A program made the position numbers and the translations under genes. From a virus, in the IMG/VR virus record IMGVR_UViG_3300021482_000008, positions 1 through 22,698 of that record: DNA of 22,698 nt. The stretch is one strand, 5' to 3'. Positions 3-22,698 of the stretch are shown here, in pieces (within the stretch, counting starts at the first letter, position 1; each line of letters opens with the position of its first letter). The notes under the pieces are model-generated. The model did no database searches, was not told the DNA's origin, and worked only from the letters and a program-made list of their open reading frames with translations.

Positions 3-404
3 AATAGGAAAGAGGCAGATGCGGTCGCGGACTGGATTAAATCAGGTAAACCAGTACACATAATGCGTGACCATAAAAAACACACATCCCCGATGATGGG
101 AGGTATGTGGGGTGCTGTTAAAGGATTTATACCGGATGAGGTTTTCCTAAAAGTTTATCGCGAGTGGATAACCGCACTTCGCGCAGAGAAATTTAAGGGT
201 AAGGAATATTGTAAAAAAGACGGTAAAAGCGACCAAGGGTTTCTCGCACATAAAATATACCCTCTAGTAAAAGATAGGTGTTTAACTCACACGAGCCACA
301 AAAAATTTTCAGATGATGATATTCCATTTCCTAGTTCATTGCGTTATGGTAGATTCATCGGTCAACAGGTGAGGGCCAACGGAACATATGTAAAAGTAAG
401 ATAA
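3..404 (+). CDS. Glycosyltransferase-like protein, 3' part only
   Basis: The reading frame is already open at the left edge of the window (from base 3) and runs to a TAA at 402-404, so the ATG at 63 is probably internal and the gene starts outside the window. The visible part reads GKPVHIMRDHKKHT, then MMGGMWGAVKG, and near the end DDIPFPSSLRYGRFIGQQ. From memory, this HIMRDHP.H...GGMWG pattern followed by a terminal FxGQ motif recurs in glycosyltransferase-like proteins encoded in surface-polysaccharide loci and in large phage genomes. I see no catalytic DxD in this fragment; it would lie upstream. It is the first of a run of glycan-modification genes. The family assignment rests on motif memory, so the precise activity is open. 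Truncation is by the window edge, not by mutation. Confidence 0.6.
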   Translation, partial: NRKEADAVADWIKSGKPVHIMRDHKKHTSPMMGGMWGAVKGFIPDEVFLKVYREWITALRAEKFKGKEYCKKDGKSDQGFLAHKIYPLVKDRCLTHTSHKKFSDDDIPFPSSLRYGRFIGQQVRANGTYVKVR

Positions 405-415
405 GGGGAAACGGT

Positions 416-973
416 ATGATATATAACTTTGGTCAAACTACATCAAGCCACGTGCCGGTATTGTTAGAGTATATTGACAAATACGCACCAAGGTCAGTTC
501 TTGAATTTGGTGGCGGGGTATTTTCGACATCTATATTTTCCAGGCACATTGACAATATAACTACAATAGAGACACACCATGAATGGGCGGAATATTTACG
601 TGGCAGGTTTAATCATAAGGTGATATTTTTGGAAAAAGATATGGTTATGCACCATGTTGAACATATCATAAGCAGATTTGACCTGGTATTTATTGATACA
701 GTAAACAAATTGCGTAGGCCGTTAATTTTATCCGCTACGAAATTTACTGATACAATAATTTGCCATGATGCGCAATTGCCATTTTTAAGAAAGATCAGGG
801 TTGTGGGTTTCAAACGTGTTGATTTCAAAAATCCTCCGTTTAAATATAAAAATGGTTTACGTCCATGGACTTCATTATTTACGAGGGATATGAAAGTGTA
901 TAATTATTTTGTAAATTACGAGGAATCAGAATTGTATAAAAAGCACAGGTTTCCATATGGCGTTGAAAAATAA
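416..973 (+). CDS. Class I SAM-dependent methyltransferase-like protein
   Basis: A 185-residue protein with a Rossmann-type methyltransferase signature. Motif I is VLEFGGGVFS at residues 28-37 (hydrophobic, ExGGG). An acidic residue follows the next strand in TIETHHEW (E52), suited to the ribose of S-adenosylmethionine. FDLVFIDT lies at 88-95 as the strand-4 motif, and IICHDAQ at 114-120 resembles the IxxHD strand of small-molecule or sugar methyltransferases. The start ATG is preceded by AAGGGG at good spacing, 11 bases after the previous stop. Its last 17 bases overlap the sulfotransferase gene, so the two are likely translationally coupled. Context suggests a sugar or glycan O-methyltransferase; the substrate cannot be read from sequence. 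The fold call is firm, the role is inferred. Confidence 0.72.
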   Translation: MIYNFGQTTSSHVPVLLEYIDKYAPRSVLEFGGGVFSTSIFSRHIDNITTIETHHEWAEYLRGRFNHKVIFLEKDMVMHHVEHIISRFDLVFIDTVNKLRRPLILSATKFTDTIICHDAQLPFLRKIRVVGFKRVDFKNPPFKYKNGLRPWTSLFTRDMKVYNYFVNYEESELYKKHRFPYGVEK

Positions 974-1493
974 AGTTTTTTGCATTGGGATGTTTAAAAC
1001 CGGAACGAAGAGTTTCGGACAAGCAATGCGTGTGCTTGGTTATAAGGTGTTGGATCGCCCATGGTTTATACTCAAAGATAACTGGTACAACAATCCTAAA
1101 AAATGGCCGATATATTTTGACAAGATAAAAGAGCGGGCAAATATGTACGAGGCATTCAGTGATGCGCCCTGGATGTTTCTATTTAAACAGCTTGACGTTT
1201 GGTATCCTAATAGTAAATTCATATTGACGTTGCGAAAGGACGCTCTATCCTTGGCAAAAAGCGACCGCGGCCAGTGGCGTGGGAAGCCTAATACCCCGTC
1301 GCTTGAAAGGTTTATGGATAGGTATAATAAACATAATAAAATGGTGTCGGATTATTTTAAAAATCGTGATAACTTTATGACTATGTGTTTCGAACGTGGT
1401 GATGGGTGGGTAAAGCTGTGTAAATTTTTGGATATAAACAATATACCTCTAATACCATTTCCACATCTTAACAAAGGGAGATATAAAAGATGA
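957..1493 (+). CDS. Sulfotransferase family protein
   Basis: A 178-residue protein that would transfer sulfate from PAPS to an acceptor. The 5'-phosphosulfate-binding loop is visible at residues 10-19 (IGMFKTGTKS, followed by LGY at 27-29), the classic GxxKTGTxS P-loop-like element. A central strand YPNSKFILTLR (83-93) is followed by a serine-containing helix, as expected for the 3'-phosphate site. The C-terminal part GWVKLCKFLDI (150-160) plus IPFPHLNKG closely matches the W..LC.FL......FP..N ending of the Sulfotransfer_4/17 type. It is shorter than the usual 200-250 residues of that family but retains both cofactor-binding ends. The gene begins inside the end of the methyltransferase gene and its TGA overlaps the next ATG (ATGA). 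A host sulfate-activation pathway would have to supply PAPS. The acceptor is unknown; a phage-encoded glycan is a reasonable inference. Confidence 0.78.
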   Translation: MALKNKVFCIGMFKTGTKSFGQAMRVLGYKVLDRPWFILKDNWYNNPKKWPIYFDKIKERANMYEAFSDAPWMFLFKQLDVWYPNSKFILTLRKDALSLAKSDRGQWRGKPNTPSLERFMDRYNKHNKMVSDYFKNRDNFMTMCFERGDGWVKLCKFLDINNIPLIPFPHLNKGRYKR

Positions 1494-2119
1494 TTAAGCG
1501 GATAGGTAGTAAATATGGTGGGTGGTATATCGATCCAAACATCGTACCACAAAACAGTACGACAGATACAGAAAGGTCAAGACCAAGCTTCTGTTATATT
1601 ATATCGGCTGGTTTGGGCAATGATATATCGTTTGACCTGGCTATGATTAAGTTGACAAATTGCTTTGTAGTTGGTATTGATCCAACAACATTGGCCGCAA
1701 AGACAGTTAGTAAAATAAAGGAACCAAAATTTGTTTATATAAAAAGGGGACTATTCCCAAATGACAATGGAATGACGATGTCTAATTTAATGACTAATGG
1801 TAATTCTATATATTCATGTGGGAGAATGACAACAAAATTCCATACAATAAGTATTCCAACGTTGATTAAGATGTATAAAAACATTTCCGTATTGAAGATG
1901 AATATTGAAGGGGCGGAATACCCTGTATTGATGCACTTGCCAGAGATAGATATAAAACAGGTATGTATACGTTTCCATCACCGCAAGAAAACCGTACCCT
2001 ATAACCTGAAAAATACTGAGAAATGTATATTAAAATTAGTGCGAATGGGATATGAAGTGATGGAGACGAATGCCGGGAATAAAAACGTTGACTACGAGGT
2101 ATTATTGTGCAAAAAGTAA
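1490..2119 (+). CDS. FkbM-family SAM-dependent methyltransferase
   Basis: A 209-residue protein with the FkbM-type layout. It has an N-terminal YGGWYIDP (9-16), a glycine motif ISAGLGNDISFD (38-49) with the acidic VGIDPT (61-66) on the next strand, and VLKMNIEGAEYPVL (134-147). The last is the diagnostic KxDIEGxE-like motif of FkbM proteins, here with Asn in place of the usual Asp in the MNIEG part. A His pair (163-164) follows. Family members methylate hydroxyls of sugars or polyketides and are common in surface-glycan gene clusters. The start ATG is joined to the upstream stop as ATGA and is preceded by AAGGGAG. The end overlaps the next gene by 13 bases. The family call is strong; the target is inferred from the cassette. 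Confidence 0.85.
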   Translation: MIKRIGSKYGGWYIDPNIVPQNSTTDTERSRPSFCYIISAGLGNDISFDLAMIKLTNCFVVGIDPTTLAAKTVSKIKEPKFVYIKRGLFPNDNGMTMSNLMTNGNSIYSCGRMTTKFHTISIPTLIKMYKNISVLKMNIEGAEYPVLMHLPEIDIKQVCIRFHHRKKTVPYNLKNTEKCILKLVRMGYEVMETNAGNKNVDYEVLLCKK

Positions 2120-2895
2120 ACGTGATTATTGGACTGAATGAAAACCCTAATTATTTTAGTATATTGCCGGTTACTGTAGCCGCATACCGCAAATTTTTCC
2201 CAGAGGCGAGGGTTATAATAGGTTTGATTTCCGATAATGATTCATTCAGAATGAAACTCCTGAATATAGCTAAACCTGATTTTATTTATCGGTTCGATCC
2301 GATAAAGGGAATAGACACTGGGAACCAAGCGAAAATAATACGATATTTTTTAGCGTGTAACTATGGTAACAGTATATGTGTAATGAATGATGTTGATATA
2401 ATACCTCTATGTCGTAAATATTTTGAAAAGCGATTAAGCCGCAGGGTGCGGGAAAACCTGCTCACAGTCGGTTCAGAGTGGTATGGCAACGGCAAGTTTC
2501 CCACTCCGTGGTGTACCGGTGAGGGGTATTTGTTTAGCCAGTTTGTGAATCCATTATATTTTGAATGGGAACAATTTATAACCTGGACTGGTAATGTGTC
2601 AAAAATTGACGGCAAGGAAAGTATATCGTTACCATTTGGCAAGTTTTCTGATGAATCATTGATACGTAGCATGTTAAACAGACGTCCAGTCCCGGTAATA
2701 AATTTGAAGAAATATCCAAAAAATAAAATACCGATTTATGCGGTGTCGCGGCACCATGCTGTAAATGTTAAGAGATTGCACGCTGGAAAATATATAGAAG
2801 GTCATCATCTTTTCCCGTTCAATAAATACGGACATCTATTAATGGAGATAGTAAAATATATTGGATGTGATTTTGATCCGGAGTGGTACAAATGA
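2107..2895 (+). CDS. GT-A-like glycosyltransferase
   Basis: A 262-residue protein with a GTG start inside the end of the FkbM gene, preceded by a GAGG about eight bases upstream. The N-terminus (VNVIIGLNENPNY, then AAYRKFFPEARVIIGL) looks like the nucleotide-sugar binding half of a GT-A fold. A metal-binding DxD triplet is visible in VMNDVDIIPL (D95-V-D97). After it, PWCTGEGYLFS (134-144) and FSDESLIRSML (about 185-195) fit the acceptor side, where DE is often found in GT-A enzymes. C-terminal HAVNVKRLHAGKY is rich in His and Lys. I do not recognise a specific named subfamily. The sugar donor and acceptor are unknown. The neighbours all point to glycan synthesis or decoration. Confidence 0.65.
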   Translation: MQKVNVIIGLNENPNYFSILPVTVAAYRKFFPEARVIIGLISDNDSFRMKLLNIAKPDFIYRFDPIKGIDTGNQAKIIRYFLACNYGNSICVMNDVDIIPLCRKYFEKRLSRRVRENLLTVGSEWYGNGKFPTPWCTGEGYLFSQFVNPLYFEWEQFITWTGNVSKIDGKESISLPFGKFSDESLIRSMLNRRPVPVINLKKYPKNKIPIYAVSRHHAVNVKRLHAGKYIEGHHLFPFNKYGHLLMEIVKYIGCDFDPEWYK

Positions 2896-3146
2896 GTATG
2901 CGAGATGCGGCTGCTGTAAGAACAGTGTGCGAGGTATTACGGGAGATAAATGATTTACACCAGGAAAATACTGAGCATGATAAAATTGTAAGGGTTAAGT
3001 TGTGTGAAGCCGAAGATATGGCTAAAAGAATGTCAAAGAAATTGGTATCATACAACAAAAATGTTTACCGGGGGTGGTGGGAAAAGAATCCTAATTATGC
3101 GCGTGCCGTTAAGCAGAGGCTTGACAAAAAGTATTGTGTGGGGTAA
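2892..3146 (+). CDS. Small unknown charged protein
   Basis: An 84-residue protein that I do not recognise. The frame extends to a GTG at 2883, but the ATG at 2892 is the better start: it overlaps the preceding TGA as ATGA and has GGAG eight bases upstream. The sequence is largely helical and charged, with a possible coiled coil in its first 55 residues (EVLREINDLHQENTEHDK and following), then a tryptophan-rich basic part (YRGWWEKNPNYARAVKQRL). No cysteine cluster, signal peptide or membrane segment is seen. It sits between a glycosyltransferase and a membrane protein, inside the modification cassette. A partner or regulatory role is possible but unsupported. Confidence 0.6.
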   Translation: MSMRDAAAVRTVCEVLREINDLHQENTEHDKIVRVKLCEAEDMAKRMSKKLVSYNKNVYRGWWEKNPNYARAVKQRLDKKYCVG

Positions 3147-3148
3147 AT

Positions 3149-3412
3149 ATGAACAAATTTAAATTTATTTTAGAACAAATAATGGATGTTTTTGATGAAC
3201 TGATTTTTATTTTTATTATCTATCCTTTGGGATTATTTTTAACAGTGCTCGGTGCTATTTGGTTTTATAATTATAATCCCAAAACATGTGTTATGGCAGG
3301 TTTTATGGTTATGTGTTTTGTAGTTGTCGGTATTGTCATTTCCATTGTTTTAATTTTAATTGAAGGCATTAAAACTATTGTTTACAATTACAAAAAACGT
3401 TTTGGAAAATAG
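3149..3412 (+). CDS. Small two-helix membrane protein
   Basis: An 87-residue protein; the ATG at 3149 lies two bases after the upstream stop and is preceded by GGGG. The frame can be read from a TTG at 3134, but that would overlap the previous gene without better support. Two long hydrophobic segments are evident, about residues 17-40 (ending LTVLGAIWFYNY) and about 47-72, followed by a basic tail (YNYKKRFGK). Size, two helices and a charged C-terminus resemble a class II holin. However, no muralytic endolysin lies next to it, and the position inside a glycan cassette equally fits a membrane anchor or a small flippase-like partner. I leave the function open. Confidence 0.6.
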   Translation: MNKFKFILEQIMDVFDELIFIFIIYPLGLFLTVLGAIWFYNYNPKTCVMAGFMVMCFVVVGIVISIVLILIEGIKTIVYNYKKRFGK

Positions 3413-3421
3413 TAAATACAT

Positions 3422-4288
3422 ATGAAAATATTAATATTACAATCAGCCGGTGGACATACTGAAAATAAAGAATATAGAGAATGCCTATGTATGACTCGTG
3501 CGCTTAATCGTATTGATGGAGTCGAAGCAGTGACATGGGGGGTCGGGCATAAGAATTATAATATCCCATTTCGTAAAATGGAATCCTGGAGTGATGTAAT
3601 ATTTATTCTTGAAAATTATTCTCGTAAACCTTGGCTACCGGTTGATGCATTGTCGGCAAGTAAGAAATTGAAAATATTTTGGAGCATTGATTCGCATTGT
3701 GCATTAAATAGACATCAGGCGCTTGCAGTAAACGCGAAGGTGAATATCTTGCTTAATTCAACTTCAAGCTATCTGAAATATTTTAAACCGATAAAGTCAA
3801 TCTGGTTTCCTAACTGTTATCCGGATGATTTAATAAAACCTTTACCAATTGCCAAAAGTATAGATGTTGGTTTTTGTGGTAGTAAACTTAATCGCGCGAA
3901 GTGGTTGCAGACACTTTCAAGGAACTTTAACTTCAAGCAAGATATTTTTGTGCTTGGCAATAAAATGGTTTCGGCAATTAATTCTTATAAAATACATTGG
4001 AACCGTAACTATAAAAACGACATCAATTACCGGACCTTTGAAACGATGGGATGTAGAACTTGCCTTGTGACAAACAAAACCGATAAGGTTAATGAATTGT
4101 TTGAGGACTATAAACATCTCGTTTATTATAATACAATAACTGATTGTATTTACAAAATAAGAAGTCTGTTGAGAAATGAAAAATTATTGAACAATATTGC
4201 TCTTAATGGATATAATGAAGTAAAAAGTAAACACACTTATTATCATCGCGCATTAAGGCTGGTAAATATAATCAAGGAGTATATATAA
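3422..4288 (+). CDS. CgeB-like GT-B glycosyltransferase
   Basis: A 288-residue protein with the look of a single-polypeptide GT-B glycosyltransferase of the CgeB type. The N-terminal half begins with a strand and a Gly-rich turn (MKILILQSAGGHTENKEY). The C-terminal nucleotide-sugar domain starts at about residue 147 (IDVGFCGSKLNRAKWL, 147-162). It holds the donor-site helix YRTFETMGCRTCLVTNKT (203-220), where E207 is the likely ribose or phosphate contact, followed by ELFEDYKHLVYY and the terminal H271-TYYHRALRLVNII. These are the usual landmarks of CgeB and related glycosyltransferases. The stop overlaps the connector start (TAATG), so the gene is translationally linked to the structural genes. 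Its own ribosome-binding site is weak (GGAA). The acceptor is unknown. Confidence 0.75.
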   Translation: MKILILQSAGGHTENKEYRECLCMTRALNRIDGVEAVTWGVGHKNYNIPFRKMESWSDVIFILENYSRKPWLPVDALSASKKLKIFWSIDSHCALNRHQALAVNAKVNILLNSTSSYLKYFKPIKSIWFPNCYPDDLIKPLPIAKSIDVGFCGSKLNRAKWLQTLSRNFNFKQDIFVLGNKMVSAINSYKIHWNRNYKNDINYRTFETMGCRTCLVTNKTDKVNELFEDYKHLVYYNTITDCIYKIRSLLRNEKLLNNIALNGYNEVKSKHTYYHRALRLVNIIKEYI

Positions 4289-4623
4289 TGGCAACGAATA
4301 TTACACTGGATAAGTTGAAAAATAGTTTAAATTTGGGGAAAACTGATAACACTGAGGATACTGAGTTAACCAGTCTGATAACATACATCGTTAACGAGGC
4401 AGTTGAATATTTAGACAGGTCAACCATTACCGGGCAAAGTAACATGCCTGCGGCACTTGAGAGAAAATTATTAAAACAGATGTGTTACGAGTGGCGCAGG
4501 AGAAAAGACCCAGGGTTAAGCTCACAAGTGTTCCCGGACGGCTCTGTTAATAAATGGGAAATGAATGAGTGGCTGCCTGAAGTAAAGGCTGCACTCGACC
4601 GTAATTATAAAATAACTATATAG
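4288..4623 (+). CDS. Head-tail connector (gp6-like adaptor)
   Basis: A 111-residue, mainly helical protein matching the short gp6/HK97-type head-tail connector family. It opens with ITLDKLKNSLNL, then an acidic loop (DNTEDTELTSLI), a helix with VNEAVEYLDR (35-44), and ends with a helical part around LLKQMCYEWRRRKDPGLSS. Such proteins form the ring under the portal that joins head to tail. A strong AAGGAG lies nine bases before the ATG, which overlaps the upstream glycosyltransferase stop by one base. Portal, protease and capsid genes would be expected upstream of the cassette and are not in this window. It marks the beginning of the neck module. Confidence 0.75.
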   Translation: MATNITLDKLKNSLNLGKTDNTEDTELTSLITYIVNEAVEYLDRSTITGQSNMPAALERKLLKQMCYEWRRRKDPGLSSQVFPDGSVNKWEMNEWLPEVKAALDRNYKITI

Positions 4624-4631
4624 GATATATT

Positions 4632-4784
4632 ATGATAGTAGTTACCTATCTTGATGGAAGCACTGAAATGGTTACATTGGAAGTGGCAAAGACATTGCGG
4701 GATAATAACAAAATAATTATACCGGATGATGACGGTAAGGCATTGACAATTGAGGATGTGTTTGGGGAAGGGTATGGCGATTAG
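4632..4784 (+). CDS. Small acidic protein of the neck module, unknown
   Basis: A 50-residue frame from ATG at 4632 to TAG at 4782-4784. It is preceded by TAGGA six bases upstream and starts eight bases after the connector stop. The protein begins MIVVTYLDGSTEMVTLEV and ends with an acidic stretch containing IIIPDDDGKALTIEDVFGEG. It looks like a compact beta-strand protein. Its last 11 bases overlap the start of the next gene, which supports it as a real coupled gene rather than a spacer. No function is assigned. Genes of this size between connector and gp10-like proteins are common in siphoviruses. Confidence 0.55.
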   Translation: MIVVTYLDGSTEMVTLEVAKTLRDNNKIIIPDDDGKALTIEDVFGEGYGD

Positions 4785-5865: not shown

Positions 5866-5871
5866 TTGTTT

Positions 5872-6669
5872 ATGTCTAATTCTGCACCAAGTACCGATAA
5901 TTATCTTGTTGGGAAAGGAAAACTCTATTTTGACCGGTTTGATGATGATGGGAATCTGACCGGTGAGCTTGACCTTGGGAATGATCCCAGCTTCGCCCTT
6001 ACCCCTGAAAACGAGCTATTGGAACATTTTAGCTCGATGGAAGGTGTGAAGAAAAAGGACAAAACAGCGGTAATATCAACTGAGTTAAATGGCAAGTTCA
6101 CTTTAGACGAAATTAACATTGATAATCTTGCACTTGCCTTATATTCAGATGATGTATCATATCTTACCCAGGATGACGGTAACCAAATTAATGCGCCGAT
6201 AACCGCGCACTCTGGTAAATGGATAAAACTACCGCACCGTAAACTTGCCACAGGCACAGTCAGCGTTACTAATGTCGCAGGTACTACTCACTACGTAGAA
6301 AATACCGATTATCGGATAGACTACACAATCGGTCGTATATTTATCGTCGTGGGAGGTAGTATCGCAGATGGTCAGACACTGCACGTTGATTATACGTATC
6401 AAGCCCACTCTTATCCTGTTGTATATCCTGCTACTAATGCAGAGTGTGAAGGATTGCTCAGGTTCGTTGGTAATGCTACGTTTGGGTTTGATTTCGAAGT
6501 GGTAATGTGGCGTGTAAAGTTATCACTGAATGGGGACATCAATTTTATTTCCGACGAGTGGGCGCAGTTTGAAATCAATTTTGAAGTTCTCGATGATTCT
6601 GCAAATCACCCTACATCACCATATGGTATGGTAATTGATACCGAGGGTGATGTAGCACCTGAAAGTTAG
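5872..6669 (+). CDS. Major tail tube protein
   Basis: A 265-residue protein placed after the tail terminator and before the assembly chaperone, with the best ribosome-binding site of the region. It begins with a typical tube-subunit entry (NYLVGKGKLYFDRFDDDG, then GELDLGNDPSFALTPE), followed by ELLEHFSSMEGVKKKD and a strand-rich core (VISTELNGKFTLDEINIDNLALAL). Tail tube proteins of this type use LG(N)-PSF...E..E..S...G..... and a long beta strand for ring stacking. An Ig-like stretch in the middle (about residues 130-185, with VTNVAGTTHYVENTDYRID) could be a surface-exposed insertion. The C-terminal part VMWRVKLSLNGDINFIS closes the barrel. Polymerises into the tube through which DNA passes. 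Confidence 0.78.
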   Translation: MSNSAPSTDNYLVGKGKLYFDRFDDDGNLTGELDLGNDPSFALTPENELLEHFSSMEGVKKKDKTAVISTELNGKFTLDEINIDNLALALYSDDVSYLTQDDGNQINAPITAHSGKWIKLPHRKLATGTVSVTNVAGTTHYVENTDYRIDYTIGRIFIVVGGSIADGQTLHVDYTYQAHSYPVVYPATNAECEGLLRFVGNATFGFDFEVVMWRVKLSLNGDINFISDEWAQFEINFEVLDDSANHPTSPYGMVIDTEGDVAPES

Positions 6670-12237: not shown

Positions 12238-12876
12238 ATGGCAATTTACGGAAGCAATTTTGATTATGGTGATTCACACTACAAGGACGAGGGCGATGTC
12301 GCCCCGTCCATTGGTGAATTTTATTTCATGCCGGATTGGAATTATCCAGTTAAATTATCATATTCTTTTGAAACCCCAATATCAATTACACGCAGAAAAT
12401 ATGAGCAGAGAAAACCATTGAGAAGAATACCATTACGCGAAGAAACATTCACATACACAGGAAATAATAATTATGAGGACGTGTGGAATTATCTTGTTGA
12501 GCACCACGCAGAAAAAATGACAATTCCGATATTCACAGAACCTTGTTTACCTGTTGGTACCGGTTCGCTCGCGGGCTTAAATTCTATTGAGGTAAATAAT
12601 ATAGCCGGATATTACAATTTAAAAAATATGACAATATATGTTATTATCATAGACAAACTCGATTTAATCGGTGCTGAAATATTATTAATTGACAATGTGG
12701 AAAATGACAATACTATCAATTTAATAGACTGTATTACAGGTGAGTTTCCCAGAGAGCGTACTGTAATATACCCTATATTTGAAGCGTATTTAAAATCTCA
12801 TAGACGAATAGATAATACAGATACAATGACAACTATTGAATTGACATTTAAAGAACAAAATACATTCGGGTACTGA
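12238..12876 (+). CDS. Distal tail protein-like, first copy
   Basis: A 212-residue protein starting three bases after the previous stop. It has the pattern of distal-tail/baseplate-ring proteins upstream of DUF2163 hubs. FMPDWNYPVKLSYSFET (about 30-46) leads into RKYEQRKPLRRIPLREETF (about 53-71), an EQR...L..IP.R motif shared by this group. A helix VWNYLVEHHAEKMTIPIF follows, and a beta-rich C-terminal part contains EILLIDNVENDNTINL. The next gene encodes a protein with a similar order of elements (helix, IPI or FWLP motif, IxV strand, final strand pattern), so the two look like divergent paralogues. Probably part of the ring that joins tail tube to tip. Family name not certain. Confidence 0.58.
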   Translation: MAIYGSNFDYGDSHYKDEGDVAPSIGEFYFMPDWNYPVKLSYSFETPISITRRKYEQRKPLRRIPLREETFTYTGNNNYEDVWNYLVEHHAEKMTIPIFTEPCLPVGTGSLAGLNSIEVNNIAGYYNLKNMTIYVIIIDKLDLIGAEILLIDNVENDNTINLIDCITGEFPRERTVIYPIFEAYLKSHRRIDNTDTMTTIELTFKEQNTFGY

Positions 12877-12877
12877 T

Positions 12878-13510
12878 ATGGCTAATGACTGGCAGGATTT
12901 GACAAGGACAACAACTGTATTTACCAGGAAGCCTAATTGGGTTGAAAATCCTATTTCAACATTTGACACTAATAGTGAATTTATAAATTACCCCGGTACT
13001 CAAATGGATATATATAATTTAAGTAATTCCATTGGTTACGAAATAACATATAGATATAGTAACTTGACAAAAGATGATGAATATTATATTATAAATTTTT
13101 TTATTAACCAACAAGGAATGCTGAAAAGATTCTGGTTACCCTGGTGGAAAAATAGTTTTAGGCTTGCTCAAAATGTTTCTATAGATGATTCTGTTATTAC
13201 GATACAACATTGCGGGTACAATAAAATAGACCAAGGGTATGAAAGAATTTTTATCTTACTGGAAACAGGTGATTATATATCACGTAAAGTAGTGGCCGTA
13301 GTAGAAAATTATAATTATGAAAACATTATATTGCAAACACCAATGAATAAAAATATTAATCAGGATGATATTTTGTTTTTTGGCAGATTATTATTAGTCA
13401 GATTTGCAGATGATGAATTGAATCTGGATTTTTCGAATAATAAAATAAGCGATTTGTCAATCAAATACAAAGAACTTCCGAATGAATATGAATTGGAGGA
13501 AGAATCATAA
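12878..13510 (+). CDS. Distal tail protein-like, second copy
   Basis: A 210-residue protein whose start is one base after the previous stop. The N-terminus (WQDLTRTTTVFTRKPNW) is followed by IGYEITYRYSNLTKDD (about 52-67). It then reads YYIINFFINQQGMLKRFWLP (about 69-88), which resembles the FW-LP strand of GTA g12 / DUF2460-type distal tail proteins. Strands VITIQHCGYNKIDQG and YISRKVVAVVENYNYENIIL complete a beta-rich second half. It lies between its possible paralogue and the hub gene, the usual place for a Dit. Its last base is shared with the following ATG (TAATG). Best reading is a tail ring protein under the tube. Confidence 0.6.
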   Translation: MANDWQDLTRTTTVFTRKPNWVENPISTFDTNSEFINYPGTQMDIYNLSNSIGYEITYRYSNLTKDDEYYIINFFINQQGMLKRFWLPWWKNSFRLAQNVSIDDSVITIQHCGYNKIDQGYERIFILLETGDYISRKVVAVVENYNYENIILQTPMNKNINQDDILFFGRLLLVRFADDELNLDFSNNKISDLSIKYKELPNEYELEEES

Positions 13511-14307
13511 TGAGCATTCAAGAAAAAGATTCGCGAGAACAAATGTGTGATTTTCTTGAAACGTATTATTTTCACAATTCATTAAATGATTATTACTATA
13601 CTTCTTACAGCGAAGATGTTACAATAGATGGAAATACGTATCAAGCGGTACCAATACAGAGAAGTACATTCGACAAAAACCTTGAAGACGGCACTGTAAA
13701 AGTGAATATTACAGCACCTATTACGACAGCATTTTATCAATTTGTTGCTTCCTTTCCCGTATACCCTACAACAGTAAGAATAAGACGATATTATATGGAC
13801 GATTACACTGAATTTGCATTAGTATTTAATGGCAAAATAAATGCTATTTCAATAAGTAAACATACTGCAACTGCCGAATGCTTATCTTCAATGAACGAAT
13901 TGAATGCAAAAGTGCCGGGTGTATATATACAGTCATATTGCAATAATGTTTTGTATGGTGACGTTTGTCAAGCTCATAAAATAGCAGACCCATATGAAAT
14001 TATTGTTGACCCAAATGACAACGCACATCTCACATTAGTTACATCGTCAATTCTACCAGACAATTTTTATACATTGGGAGAGTGTCAATATAATAGTGAA
14101 CCTAGATTGATAACAAAACAAACGGGCAATGAAATTTATTTACATTTTCCATATAGAAATATTAATACCGGAGATACTGTTAATTTATTTGCGGGATGTG
14201 ACAAAACGCCTGAAACGTGTCATAATGTTCATGGTAATATAGATAATTTCGTTGGAATGTATTTTGTTCCCAAACCGCCTAATCCTGTAAATTGGGGTGT
14301 TGTATGA
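13510..14307 (+). CDS. Tail hub protein, DUF2163 / phage BR0599 type
   Basis: A 265-residue protein matching the DUF2163 plus BR0599 layout of GTA gene 13. The N-terminal half has strands TIDGNTYQAVPIQRSTF (38-54), and a hub-like segment follows (KINAISISKHTATAECLSS). The Cys-containing C-terminal landmarks are clear: SYCNNVLYGDVC (142-153), then GCDKTPETC (229-237), HGNIDNFVGM (241-250) and PKPPNP (254-259). Cys144, 153, 230 and 237 sit where family members have conserved cysteines. The stop overlaps the peptidase start (ATGA). The protein should form part of the hub at the tail tip, next to the peptidase and the large tip protein. Confidence 0.85.
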   Translation: MSIQEKDSREQMCDFLETYYFHNSLNDYYYTSYSEDVTIDGNTYQAVPIQRSTFDKNLEDGTVKVNITAPITTAFYQFVASFPVYPTTVRIRRYYMDDYTEFALVFNGKINAISISKHTATAECLSSMNELNAKVPGVYIQSYCNNVLYGDVCQAHKIADPYEIIVDPNDNAHLTLVTSSILPDNFYTLGECQYNSEPRLITKQTGNEIYLHFPYRNINTGDTVNLFAGCDKTPETCHNVHGNIDNFVGMYFVPKPPNPVNWGVV

Positions 14308-14780
14308 TGTCGATATTTTATGATAAGATGATATGGTACCGATTATTAACGGTATTATTAGATTGGTTAGGAACACCCTATGCTCATTTCAAAATGGACA
14401 AAAAGCGAGGGGCAGATTGTGCTCTATTCATTGCAGCATGTTTAAAAGAAATCGGAATTTTAAAAAATATAGCATATAAATATTACCCTAGATTTTGGCA
14501 TAAATTTACAGAAACAGAAGTGATATTAAATCATATCACAGGTTCAATAAATGAAAATATAAAAAAAGGATATAGACTTGTAAATGTAAATAAAAATAAT
14601 TTAACAAAAGGTGATATTATAATATTTTCTATACGTTCAAAAGTATCTAATCATGTGGCATTATATCTAGGAAATAATTTAATTACACATTCAATAAATG
14701 GCAGAGGGGTTTGTATAGTCCCCTTGTCAAATGAATATAAAAATAGAATAACAAATAATTTTAGAATTGTGAGGGTTTAA
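14304..14780 (+). CDS. NlpC/P60-like peptidase of the tail tip
   Basis: A 158-residue protein; the start at 14304 overlaps the hub stop as ATGA and has GGGG six bases upstream. It matches NlpC/P60-type cell-wall peptidases found at the tail tip (GTA gene 14 position). The catalytic Cys39 is in RGADCALFIAACL (35-47) after the LGTPYAHF (22-29) entry helix, and the catalytic His117 is in KVSNHVALYLGNN (113-125). A further polar residue, His129, is in LITHSINGRG, where the family often has a third active-site residue. No signal peptide is present. It would cleave peptidoglycan stem peptides during DNA entry. Confidence 0.8.
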   Translation: MMSIFYDKMIWYRLLTVLLDWLGTPYAHFKMDKKRGADCALFIAACLKEIGILKNIAYKYYPRFWHKFTETEVILNHITGSINENIKKGYRLVNVNKNNLTKGDIIIFSIRSKVSNHVALYLGNNLITHSINGRGVCIVPLSNEYKNRITNNFRIVRV

Positions 14781-16649
14781 ATGGGTGTCGATCCTTTGTC
14801 TATAATAGCATTAGTTCTTGTAGCTGCCGGTGCGGTTGTTGCCGCGGTATATGCGTCTAAAGCCCAAGATGCAATTGCCAGTCTGCCGGACGCAGAACAG
14901 CAGACAATAAGCGAAATGGAAGTGACAGAATTGTCAGAAGGTAAAGTTGTTCCTTTACTATATGGGTACAATTGTGTTGCTGGAAATATTATATCATGGT
15001 ACGCCGACAAACAAAATAGCGGCGAAGGTGATTATTACAAAATATGTCTATGGCTGGTATTAGGCATGGGAAAGCTGGTTCCGGTTGCAAAATATACTGG
15101 GGAATTGTATAAATATAAATTGTTTGGTTGGGATTGGTGGGATATTATCGAGAAATTAAGCCATGTAGGTATTTATGATGAAGTACAGCATTGGATATTA
15201 GACGATGAAAGGCCAATAGAAAATCATTTGGATAATTATGGTCAGTCGCCACAAATTGAATTCTCAGATATGCACCCATTACATTATTATCAGTCTGGCG
15301 GCGACGGTGAAAATTATAAGCTGCCATTAACATCACCGACAGGTCACGATATTCTAAACATACCACCGATTAGAGATGTATATACATTGTTTGCTACTAA
15401 ATTAAAGGGGATTGCTCATGTTTTTATGTATAATATAGATTTGGATGTTGGCAGAATAAATATACCGAATTATAAATTTAAAGTAAAAAAAATACTTGAT
15501 ACCGGATTGCCGTATGACAATATAAAAGTAAAGGAAGAAGGATACTGGTATGCGGCTTATATCGGGAACAATCCTGCGGGTATAATATATGATTTGTTGA
15601 CTAATAAACAATATGGATTAGGATTGGATTCAAGCGCAATAAATAAATCCAATTTTATTATTGCTGCAAATTACTTTTACGAAAAGAAAATGGCATTAAA
15701 TTTTGCGATTAATACACAAACAAGCGTAAGAGATATAATAAATAAAATCCAAGAATGGACTGATTGTTATTTAATTAAAAATATAGATGACAAATATGAA
15801 ATTGCAATATTACAAGAATCTGATATTAATAATCCCAAGGCAACAATTTACGATAAAGATATAATTGAATTGACAATAAGAAGAAAATCATGGGATGAAA
15901 CATACAACTCATTTACCGCCAATTATAAACCAACTTATCACGTAGACAGCGTAGGCTATGTTTTATATGATAACAACGAAACAAGAACAATGACCGCAAA
16001 AAATGAAGCGAATATATCATTTACAGGTGGAAAACGTGAAAAGGTAGTAGATTTAACTGGTTTTTCGTACCCTCCGGCTGTGGCCTACAGGCTGCACCAA
16101 ATAATGAAAAAAGAAAGCTATCCGTTTGCAAATGGTTATTTGAAAACTAATTTGTCATTTATATATTTACAGGTAGGCGATGTAATTATAATTGACAGCG
16201 ATGAATATAATGCAAGTATGCCATATAGGATTATAAACAAAAATGTAAATAAAATAGATGAAAATATTGTTGAATTTTCATTACTCCAGATGCGAGAAAT
16301 ATATGCAGATGATTCCTTTACAATAGATGATTATATTACAGGTTCGAGAAATAGAAATTCGCCAGAAATTACAACACCTCCATGTCTCGAAAACTTAACC
16401 TTTCCCGCATTTAGCGCAGTGTCGAATCCGTTATCATATAAATTTCAAGACGATAGTAAGTCAATTGTACATTGGGGAACTGGTCAATTAATGACTGGAA
16501 AATTGACTTATAATGTTGATTATACTGTAGATGAACACGACAAAATACATCTTAATGAAACCTTATATGCTGATGAAATTATGCATAATTCCAATGGGTT
16601 AATGAATATAGATGTTTACGAATTGGGATGTCCTTCTGTGGAGAGCTAA
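14781..16649 (+). CDS. Tail tip / host-specificity protein (GpJ / GTA g15-like)
   Basis: A 622-residue protein following the peptidase immediately. Residues 5-25 are strongly hydrophobic (SIIALVLVAAGAVVAAVYAS), resembling a membrane segment at the N-terminus. KVVPLLYGYNCVAGNIISW (55-73) is the P-x-x-YG-x-x-x-x-x-G motif that opens many GpI/GpJ-type tip proteins. NPAGIIYDLLTNKQYGLGLD (264-283) and DIINKIQEWTDCYL (318-331) match the conserved putative phage tail protein domain (Phage-tail_3). It is shorter than full GTA g15 and appears to lack a TIM-barrel half. The C-terminal part (from about 540) is strand-rich. It likely forms the hub that carries the tail fibre encoded next. Confidence 0.78.
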   Translation: MGVDPLSIIALVLVAAGAVVAAVYASKAQDAIASLPDAEQQTISEMEVTELSEGKVVPLLYGYNCVAGNIISWYADKQNSGEGDYYKICLWLVLGMGKLVPVAKYTGELYKYKLFGWDWWDIIEKLSHVGIYDEVQHWILDDERPIENHLDNYGQSPQIEFSDMHPLHYYQSGGDGENYKLPLTSPTGHDILNIPPIRDVYTLFATKLKGIAHVFMYNIDLDVGRINIPNYKFKVKKILDTGLPYDNIKVKEEGYWYAAYIGNNPAGIIYDLLTNKQYGLGLDSSAINKSNFIIAANYFYEKKMALNFAINTQTSVRDIINKIQEWTDCYLIKNIDDKYEIAILQESDINNPKATIYDKDIIELTIRRKSWDETYNSFTANYKPTYHVDSVGYVLYDNNETRTMTAKNEANISFTGGKREKVVDLTGFSYPPAVAYRLHQIMKKESYPFANGYLKTNLSFIYLQVGDVIIIDSDEYNASMPYRIINKNVNKIDENIVEFSLLQMREIYADDSFTIDDYITGSRNRNSPEITTPPCLENLTFPAFSAVSNPLSYKFQDDSKSIVHWGTGQLMTGKLTYNVDYTVDEHDKIHLNETLYADEIMHNSNGLMNIDVYELGCPSVES

Positions 16650-22251: not shown

Positions 22252-22650
22252 CTATTTCCATTCCTCCAAATAATATTCTGCTTCGATACCGTACGGCGTC
22301 GAAACGGTGACGATTCTTTTTTGTTTGTCAACTTTTATGAGCACCGGGACTTCTCCCCAACACTCGTTGTGTTTAATGACATTAATGTGGTCGTCCTCCA
22401 GCTCAGACCAAGGGAAACCATCGAGGTTGTGCAAGACGATTTCCCAGTCGATCGGTTCATCGCCCCACCAAATTTCCTCGTTGAGGGGCGTCCCCTCATC
22501 ATCAGCGCCGCATGCCGTGAGGATACCCCACGACGACGCGTAACCATCATACCAATTGGGACGATTCCCGACATAATCAGCAAGACGAATTGTTTGTCGA
22601 TTATCGGTTATTGATATGGTTGGTATTAATTGTCGGATATAATTTGCCAT
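22252..22650 (-). CDS. Unknown acidic protein of the early operon
   Basis: A 132-residue protein with no recognised motif. GGAG lies about four bases upstream of the ATG. It is acidic and Trp-rich: YDGYASSWGILTACGAD, EEIWWGDEPIDWEIVLHNL, then GFPWSELEDDHINVIKHNE. The final part looks beta-rich (VPVLIKVDKQKRIVTVSTP). The stop overlaps the next gene's alternative start. It is probably co-transcribed with the nuclease, Bet and SbcC-like genes. Function unknown. Confidence 0.6.
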   Translation of the reverse strand: MANYIRQLIPTISITDNRQTIRLADYVGNRPNWYDGYASSWGILTACGADDEGTPLNEEIWWGDEPIDWEIVLHNLDGFPWSELEDDHINVIKHNECWGEVPVLIKVDKQKRIVTVSTPYGIEAEYYLEEWK

Positions 22651-22698
22651 TTTTCTCCGTGTTGTATTATCAGCACAGGCGGCATGGGCGGCGCAGGA
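22626..22698 (-). CDS. Possible 3' end of a further minus-strand gene
   Basis: A minus-strand frame is open from the right window edge to a TAA at 22626-22628, coding 23 visible residues that end GEKWQIISDN. It overlaps the start of the previous entry by 25 bases, a bit more than the overlaps elsewhere in the operon. It could be the end of the gene before it, or chance. The sequence stops at the window edge. Confidence 0.35.
   Translation of the reverse strand, partial: PAPPMPPVLIIQHGEKWQIISDN

Follow-up and report, generated by a model that had tools for sequence, protein, structure and literature searches.

Glycan-enzyme genes at the left end of the window

The left end of the window (the whole 22 698 nt stretch of viral DNA that was analysed) is filled from position 3 to 4288 by eight plus-strand ORFs, which overlap or abut. 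The last of these and the gene for a gp6-like head-tail connector (4288–4623, plus strand; PF05135, 1.8e-5), the right border of the cassette, have one base in common. The initial annotation had described glycan-enzyme genes in overlapping tandem running into the connector, and this was confirmed by the ORFs and by their Pfam and profile assignments. Its term 'GT-A-like' holds at motif level only, the ORFs at 2883–3146 and 3134–3412 were missing from its list and the cassette is larger than it had described.

The first ORF, gI (3–404), is the 3′ part of a gene for a 227-aa GT-A-like glycosyltransferase, complete at 13915–14598 of the longer record G001, and gM (2107–2895) is likewise a candidate GT-A-like glycosyltransferase. 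The motif RDxDSR is invariant in the gI family (alignment A8) and D95xD97 in the six-member gM family; gM had no database match above noise and gI no such match in Pfam or the PDB, bar Glyco_transf_7C at 0.015 in one of seven members, so both assignments are made at the level of a DxD-type motif. The structure model of gM was poor (mean pLDDT 44.8).

Between these two genes lie gJ (416–973), gK (957–1493) and gL (1490–2119). gJ had no significant Pfam match alone, and was assigned to the class I SAM methyltransferases by comparison of its profile (A9) with the PDB, which gave the tRNA 5-hydroxyuridine methyltransferase TrmR (6e-4) and YrrM (1.9e-3). gK is a PAPS-dependent sulfotransferase (PF17784, Sulfotransfer_4, 1e-25, above the cut-off) and gL an FkbM-type O-methyltransferase (PF05050, 1.5e-5; PF13383, 7e-5). 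They are followed, after gM, by gN (2883–3146), a conserved 87-aa protein with 65% identity in locus L030 and 68% in L032, and gO (3134–3412), a 92-aa membrane protein with two to three hydrophobic segments in a hydropathy scan. gO is holin-like by shape only and has no family match. The last gene, gP (3422–4288), encodes a CgeB-like GT-B glycosyltransferase (Glyco_trans_1_2, PF13524, 6.1e-23), homologues of which lie directly 5′ of the connector in L011rc and L033–L036.

The cassette lies between capsid and connector genes

The longer record G001 is identical to the window and carries terminase, portal, protease and major capsid protein (MCP) genes, followed by the cassette and then the connector. 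The cassette comprises 16 genes over ∼11 kb, of which the window holds the right half; its first gene begins 74 b past the MCP gene and ∼6.6 kb before the window starts. The placement of the cassette within a virion-assembly operon, as first annotated, is borne out by this leftward extension, with portal and MCP on one side and the connector on the other. Bacterial polysaccharide genes joined by misassembly, which had been named as a finding that would refute the proposal, were ruled out, since the order MCP–cassette–connector is found in this virus and recurs in many relatives among divergent records, since a short record from another metagenome (L042; MCP identity 100%, gA within 372 b) has the same junction of the MCP gene with the cassette gene gA, and since no break in base composition is seen at the right edge.

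Matches to glycosyltransferases in Pfam, NCBIfam or PHROG were obtained for gB, gD, gE, gF, gH and gP, gB and gH matching PHROG glycosyltransferases. The core enzymes matched GT9 (2e-15) and, in two cases, GT-D-like families (9e-12 and 6e-9). For gA, the most constant cassette gene, PF13524 was matched by three of nine members (best 7e-5), the G001 member lying below the cut-off at 0.02; this weakly suggests that gA is a glycosyltransferase. No relation was found by hhalign between gA and gP, gM and gI, or gB and gH; profile searches of the PDB gave nothing useful with gB, gI, gM and GT-D, and weak or spurious matches with gH and gA.

Conservation was assessed among the best 80 of 135 MCP relatives, 53 of which form the clade, while 27, together with L121, were taken as remote. 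The clade consists of divergent, uncultured tailed phages (siphophages). gA lies 3′ of the MCP gene in 43 of the 45 clade loci with at least 1 kb downstream, a count that omits the eight of 53 with less than 1 kb (L042 among them) and includes near-identical records; the exceptions are L053, which has gB in this place, and L084, with 1.5 kb downstream. Within the same best 80 of 135, the figure is 34/36 after removal of the nine loci that supplied the models and 26/27 after dereplication by MCP. Cassette families were found in none of the 28 remote loci (the remainder of the best 80 of 135, plus L121), 22 of which have at least 1 kb downstream and six less. Both gA and gD were present in all 14 loci seen from MCP through to connector, and MCP distances correlate with those of gA (r 0.76, n 26), gD (r 0.84, n 18) and portal (r 0.67, n 26). 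The right half of the cassette is variable, with pyruvyl-transferase, WbqC or acyltransferase genes in other loci. tblastn of SULT, gA, gD and gE against a phage genome collection gave no match, and genome scans yielded no sulfotransferase relative; their single remote MCP match came from a contig of a Schlesneria MAG.

A sulfotransferase in three cassette viruses

gK matched SmSULT at 4.6e-11, and its AlphaFold model (pLDDT 79.8) had a sulfotransferase as its top Foldseek match (2.3e-7). The loop GMFKTGTKSxG, which we take to be a 5′-PSB-like loop, is invariant in five sequences. The family profile of the PAPS-dependent sulfotransferases (PF17784), a 5′-phosphosulfate loop and an alpha/beta fold were all found, and by family, loop and predicted fold gK is a genuine sulfotransferase, with its activity predicted. 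Three cassette viruses alone were found to have the gene; among the other loci visible over the whole span between MCP and connector, it was absent from all 14. It probably sulfates the cassette-built glycan in this virus, and could act on another substrate. A supply of PAPS from the host is assumed.

A cassette gene of G001, gG, was considered as a source of sulfate and rejected. Its best PHROG is 424 ('PAPS reductase') and part of it resembles phage endonuclease zinc fingers; it was present in no other cassette seen, its one other match (L047) lies upstream of terminase genes, and it was left as a passenger.

Capsid and tail proteins end in serine

Among the best 80 of 135 MCP relatives, the last residue of the clade MCP is Ser or Thr in 49 of 49 complete cases, four of the 53 clade loci having no complete MCP end, and in 26 of 26 distinct ends. 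The MCPs of one clade share ancestry and are not independent. In the major tail protein (MTP), Ser is last in all 14 distinct C-termini; the MTP of the window (5866–6669, plus strand; phrog_807, 3e-53), a proposed acceptor, ends GDVAPES, with the C-terminal Ser codon at 6664–6666. Residue −1 is nearly invariant, although residues −2 to −10 vary. In the remaining families that were modelled, S/T was found at 22 of 265 distinct ends, with 0/16 for the connector and 0/16 for the neck; proteins in which such ends were seen at times include the tac121 family (8/14), ta212 (3/7), portal (9/33) and protease (4/31). Two proteins of the window are possible further acceptors, a 210-aa tail-region protein, ta210 (12878–13510, plus strand), which has a Ser end and a small family that weakly shows the same pattern (S/T in 5/6 distinct C-termini), and a J-like tail-tip protein (14781–16649, plus strand; phrog_1101, 1.4e-36), which ends CPSVES and whose set, also a weak case (4/6), shares one end with another family and so has at least one false member.

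In mycobacteriophage Che8, glycans are reportedly carried at the C-termini of MCP and MTP, which end KTGS and SDGS respectively. That report (Freeman et al., 2023) may already describe the terminal serine in mycobacteriophages; our literature search found no paper in which phage capsids are glycosylated at a C-terminal serine. C-termini were read in 15 hand-picked cultured phages, in the order Che8, then Muddy, Dagobah, Kronos, Suzuki and Javan630, then nine others, and the ends of prophiGD17-2 were scored before its glycosyltransferase status was known. A Ser end was present on MCP in 6/6 and on MTP in 5/5 phages with a Che8-type glycosyltransferase, and in 0/9 and 0/6 of those without, the MTP counts omitting LittleLaf, AP45 and Dagobah, which lacked an available MTP, and Kronos. 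The 'tail protein' of Kronos ends in V and its identity is unclear, hence its omission. Neighbouring head-tail genes had S/T ends in 1/23 cases in glycosyltransferase-bearing and 4/23 in glycosyltransferase-lacking phages. Outside this comparison, the cassette-less Cr-LKS3, pCB2051-A and G003 have other last residues on both MCP and MTP.

Proposed glycosylation of the virion

The cassette behind the capsid gene, together with Ser ends like those of phages reported to be glycosylated, points to a probable sugar coating of the virus's own particles. The reading that we favour, and consider probable from sequence comparison, is a late, virion-directed pathway. In it, cytosolic glycosyltransferases whose genes accompany those of the head would link a first sugar to the Ser that ends MCP and MTP; the chain would be started by gA or gD, extended one sugar at a time and capped by enzymes of the variable right half, here two methyltransferases and the sulfotransferase. 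In this virus the chain would be capped by O-methyl groups and probably by sulfate drawn from host PAPS. That Ser is the acceptor is inferred, as are the donor sugars, the order in which the steps occur, late expression and the action of the sulfotransferase on this glycan. The capsid or tail decoration proposed in the initial annotation is partly supported overall, and is favoured by the soluble enzymes, their position and the C-terminal Ser. A broader proposal, in which MCP and MTP are glycosylated on Ser throughout the clade with swappable caps, sulfated here, and a dual Ser end predicts virion glycosylation generally, is put forward tentatively, at somewhat under even chances.

It appears unlikely that the enzymes remodel the surface of the host cell, in lysogeny or at a late stage of infection, for superinfection exclusion or receptor masking. 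The cassettes do contain CgeB-, GT9 (heptosyltransferase)-, FkbM-, WbqC- and pyruvyltransferase-type genes, which are common in surface-polysaccharide loci. However, no flippase, polymerase, lipid-carrier glycosyltransferase, ligase or ABC export gene was recognised by Pfam scans and hydropathy, the Pfam scans covering the G001 cassette and 20 chosen ORFs of five distant loci, several without any match. Hydrophobic segments above threshold are few (gO alone among the 16 G001 proteins; 6/101 cassette ORFs of the relatives, two being GT9 proteins barely over the threshold), the cassette sits among head genes, and a surface role does not predict a Ser end on MCP and MTP. The host-envelope alternative of the initial annotation is thus less supported.

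On a further reading, the Ser that ends MCP and MTP is structural, retained perhaps for packing, and the cassette decorates a different protein of the virion, for example a fibre or tail-tip protein. Common ancestry of the clade members and the frequent S/T ends of the J-like and ta210 proteins agree with this, but it does not sit well with a last residue fixed beside variable neighbours, nor with Ser ends that are found in glycosyltransferase-bearing cultured phages and are absent from those lacking the enzyme, including the Che8 MCP relatives Dubu (55% identity) and AGM5 (52%); this reading is considered decidedly improbable. Glycosylation of phage DNA (hypermodified bases) is very improbable: virus-encoded DNA-glycosylating enzymes are known (Pyle 2024, as cited in an extract of PMC12619734), but the position in the head operon speaks against it, the C-terminal Ser would be left unexplained, and the 15 records, which are fragments, held no Tet/JBP match (a weak negative, as no control genome matched either) and one of the thymidylate-synthase family.

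If virion-directed glycosylation is true, unrelated enzymes in a clade-wide, capsid-linked cassette would suggest that virion glycosylation arose more than once, and a core that builds the chain could be compared with a variable part that caps it. The C-terminal serine mark would allow prediction, and direct tests, from sequence alone. With a sulfated cap, the lineage of the window would have a phage-encoded, negatively charged virion glycan, which would alter the charge of the particle and might also affect adsorption and recognition. To our knowledge, phage virion glycosylation has been described mainly from mycobacteriophages.

Comparison with known systems

The cassette resembles bacterial surface-polysaccharide loci in its CgeB-type GT-B, GT9, FkbM, WbqC and pyruvyltransferase types, and differs from them in lying inside a phage head operon with no recognised membrane export or polymerisation genes. 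Sulfotransferase genes are also found in the genomes of marine OM43 phages and Synechococcus phage S-SRM01, and their function is called unclear in an extract of PMC10580990; a phage-made sulfated glycan, if true, would supply one. Those enzymes are of the Sulfotransfer_3 family, while the one described here is Sulfotransfer_4 and stands in a cassette tied to virion genes. The novelty first claimed for a sulfated phage glycan was partly overstated, as a sulphated sugar in the glycan of a virion is already reported for HRPV-1 (extract of PMC6137143). There the glycan is the N-glycan of VP4 of a pleomorphic archaeal virus, predicted to be host-made; here a tailed phage is concerned and the glycan is predicted.

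Che8 shares with this lineage phage-encoded glycosyltransferases (with gA a weak case here), a methyltransferase and a Ser end on MCP and MTP; in its gp108, GT2 and methyltransferase family matches lie within one protein. It differs in having three annotated glycosyltransferase genes, of the GT2 and GT25 families, near the right end of the genome, whereas here as many as 16 genes occupy one constant position, bounded by MCP and connector, and encode a sulfotransferase as well as enzymes of the GT9, GT-D and CgeB types. In Dylan, which has a gp110 relative, the glycosyltransferase genes lie directly 5′ of the protease gene, near MCP. Homologous glycosyltransferases were not found: none of the cassette HMMs matched Che8 gp108–110 at E ≤ 10, and the best BLAST value was 0.03, so the link to Che8 is by analogy. 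The cassette may work like the Che8 system while not being a member of it by enzyme descent.

Organization of the glycan cassette

The window, a complete IMG/VR record of 22,698 b, was identical over its full length to positions 14195-36892 of a longer record, IMGVR_UViG_3300021467_000016 (G001, 37,857 b). The gene order in G001 is terminase small and large subunits, portal, protease fusion (all four named by eye and position), major capsid protein (MCP; PF05065, 8.6e-34), cassette, connector, neck, tail terminator and major tail protein (MTP). The initial annotation had described a glycan-enzyme cassette at 3-4288; a cassette is located there, but its extent was underestimated, as these eight ORFs are the right part of a 16-gene cassette of ~11 kb. 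The count leaves out a 53-aa ORF between gA and gB. Gaps within the cassette range from -17 to +11 b and 74 b separate it from the MCP gene. An 82-base stretch (window 22604-22685 and locus L010 19417-19498) has a second copy, with 91% identity, ~0.5 kb past the window's right end in G001.

From the MCP side, the genes are gA (probable GT-B glycosyltransferase, GT), gB (GT), gC, gD (GT9), gE and gF (both GT-D-like), gG (PAPS-reductase-like), gH (GT), gI (GT-like), gJ (methyltransferase), gK (sulfotransferase), gL (FkbM methyltransferase), gM (GT-A-like), gN (87 aa, window 2883-3146), gO (membrane protein, window 3134-3412) and gP (CgeB-like). The weakest core assignment is that of gA, which matched PF13524 at 0.02 in G001 and in three of nine members (best 7e-5); profile comparison of gA with gP gave no match. 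gG (G001 12371-13210; L005 7221-8060) has a zinc-finger-like N-terminal part, and its counterpart was absent from every other cassette seen. gN matched no family and is 65-68% identical to its counterparts in loci L030 and L032, as against 32-48% for the cassette proteins on either side. In the cassette virus G004 an endolysin-like peptidase (L019 8546-8911; phrog_894, 3e-36) lies between the sulfotransferase and gM, and an ORF at L032 1269-1607 resembles it by eye. Together with small membrane ORFs such as gO, these hint that lysis genes may be dispersed across the head operon and cassette.

The cassette accompanies the capsid gene across a clade

In nine other records, two of them (L033 and L034) near-identical, the MCP gene is followed by gA, gB, gD, gE, gF and gH in unchanged order. 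Of 135 relatives found by the MCP-alignment scan the best 80 were retained, and downstream cassette genes were sought by six-frame HMM searches. gA was detected 3' of the MCP gene, 30-1472 b away, in 43 of the 45 clade loci with at least 1 kb behind MCP; in L053 gB was in place without gA, and the L084 record stops after 1.5 kb. Excluding the nine loci that supplied the models the count was 34/36, and 26/27 when dereplicated by MCP. At remote MCP loci cassette families were found in none of 28, 22 of which had at least 1 kb downstream.

Both gA and gD were present in all 14 loci covered through to the connector. The smallest cassettes (L065, L067, L068, L071 and L092) comprise gA, space for approximately one ORF and gD, with the connector 3.0-3.8 kb behind MCP; the largest seen in full is that of G001. 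Distant cassettes carry other GT2, GT17, methyltransferase and hexapeptide-transferase genes. The cassette core and MCP co-diverge, with Mantel correlations to MCP distances of 0.76 for gA, 0.84 for gD and 0.51-0.78 for gB, gE, gF, gH and gI; the virion genes gave 0.67 (portal), 0.58 (protease) and 0.49 (connector).

The cassette was not found among the cultured phages searched. In tblastn against the phage collection gA, gD and gE had no match and gP had one weak partial match, and the tail-gene relatives Cr-LKS3, pCB2051-A and G003 have no cassette. L033 and L034 diverge strongly in MCP only (3417-4778 and 3419-4783; pS 0.55, pN 0.076), the adjacent gA being mildly divergent (pS 0.12), an apparent capsid-gene allele swap. 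Two pairs of records sharing a metagenome number, L031/L046 and L006/L011, may each derive from a single phage, with its cassette split into a left and a right part.

A C-terminal serine on the capsid and tail proteins

Serine (47) or threonine (2) is the last residue of each of the 49 clade MCPs whose C-terminus was complete, and likewise of 26/26 distinct ends; MTP ends in serine in 14/14 distinct ends (11/11 in a smaller set). Serine or threonine ended 22 of 265 distinct ends of other families in the same records and one of 28 remote MCPs. Entropy at the last position was 0.39 bits for MCP and 0 bits for MTP, and 1.3-2.7 bits at positions -2 to -10. Against a strict rule, such ends also occurred in tac121 (8/14), ta210 (5/6), J-like (4/6), ta212 (3/7), portal (9/33) and protease (4/31) proteins, some of the small sets including false members. 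MCP and MTP are the likely acceptors of the glycan.

The abstract of Freeman et al. 2023 reportedly describes C-terminal O-linked glycans on mycobacteriophage capsid and tail tube subunits. Glycans are reported on the capsid protein of mycobacteriophage Che8 (PMC11256854), and the capsid and tail tube subunits of mycobacteriophages are reported to carry them on their C-termini (PMC12619734). In Che8 serine is last on MCP and MTP, and seven further proteins examined end in other residues. Among cultured phages with a GT of the Che8 gp110 type (Che8, Dylan, Fryberger, LittleLaf (MCP only), Neville and prophiGD17-2) serine ended 6/6 MCPs and 5/5 MTPs, and among nine lacking a GT by the gp110-type and Pfam GT2 criteria alone (Dubu, AGM5, AP45, P318, Muddy, Suzuki, Javan630, Dagobah and Kronos) 0/9 and 0/6; no probability is claimed for this association, because the set is small and author-chosen and some phages are mutually related. 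The latter group includes Che8-like MCPs (Dubu, 55% identity; AGM5, 52%). Muddy (L125) and P318 (L137), in which no gp110-type or GT2 gene was detected, have matching non-serine tails on MCP and MTP, EGE-type and SP respectively; matching tails within one phage may be a wider phenomenon.

The sulfotransferase

gK matched PF17784 (1e-25) and a Schistosoma sulfotransferase (4.6e-11). Structure search with its predicted model (mean pLDDT 79.8) returned sulfotransferases as best matches (2.3e-7, TM-score by query 0.66, rmsd 6.8), with a few P-loop kinases also below 1e-3. The loop GMFKTGTKS was invariant across five sequences, and change between gK and its relatives was mostly silent (pN 0.23-0.25, pS 0.61-0.88). 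The gene was detected in three cassette viruses (G001/window, G004 and G002) and in 0/14 of the other loci covered from MCP to connector, and tblastn detected no relatives among 50,697 phage records. Further relatives are possible, as the alignment-based scan relies on short patterns. In another phage type (L020/L021) a sulfotransferase of 43% identity lies within a large sugar locus that adjoins RecA- and ClpA-like genes (named by eye).

Proposed mechanism and comparison with known systems

Fifteen of the 16 cassette proteins had no hydrophobic segment over threshold in a hydropathy scan, and no export genes were recognised among the cassette proteins scanned. These features, together with the location of the cassette among head genes, are consistent with sugar being transferred directly to a cytosolic protein by soluble enzymes. 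gA and gD form the constant pair, and one of them may therefore begin the chain at the terminal serine. Modifying enzymes lie in the variable right half, an arrangement that fits a capping role; the window virus would cap the chain with two methyltransferases and one sulfotransferase, with PAPS assumed to come from the host.

Neither a C-terminal serine mark nor a phage sulfotransferase in virion glycosylation was found in the literature searched, which did not include Freeman et al. 2023. A sulphated virion glycan has a precedent in an archaeal virus, predicted to be host-made (PMC6137143). Virion glycosylation by phage enzymes is already known; new here are the enzyme set, its fixed capsid-linked site, its spread across the clade and the sulfotransferase.
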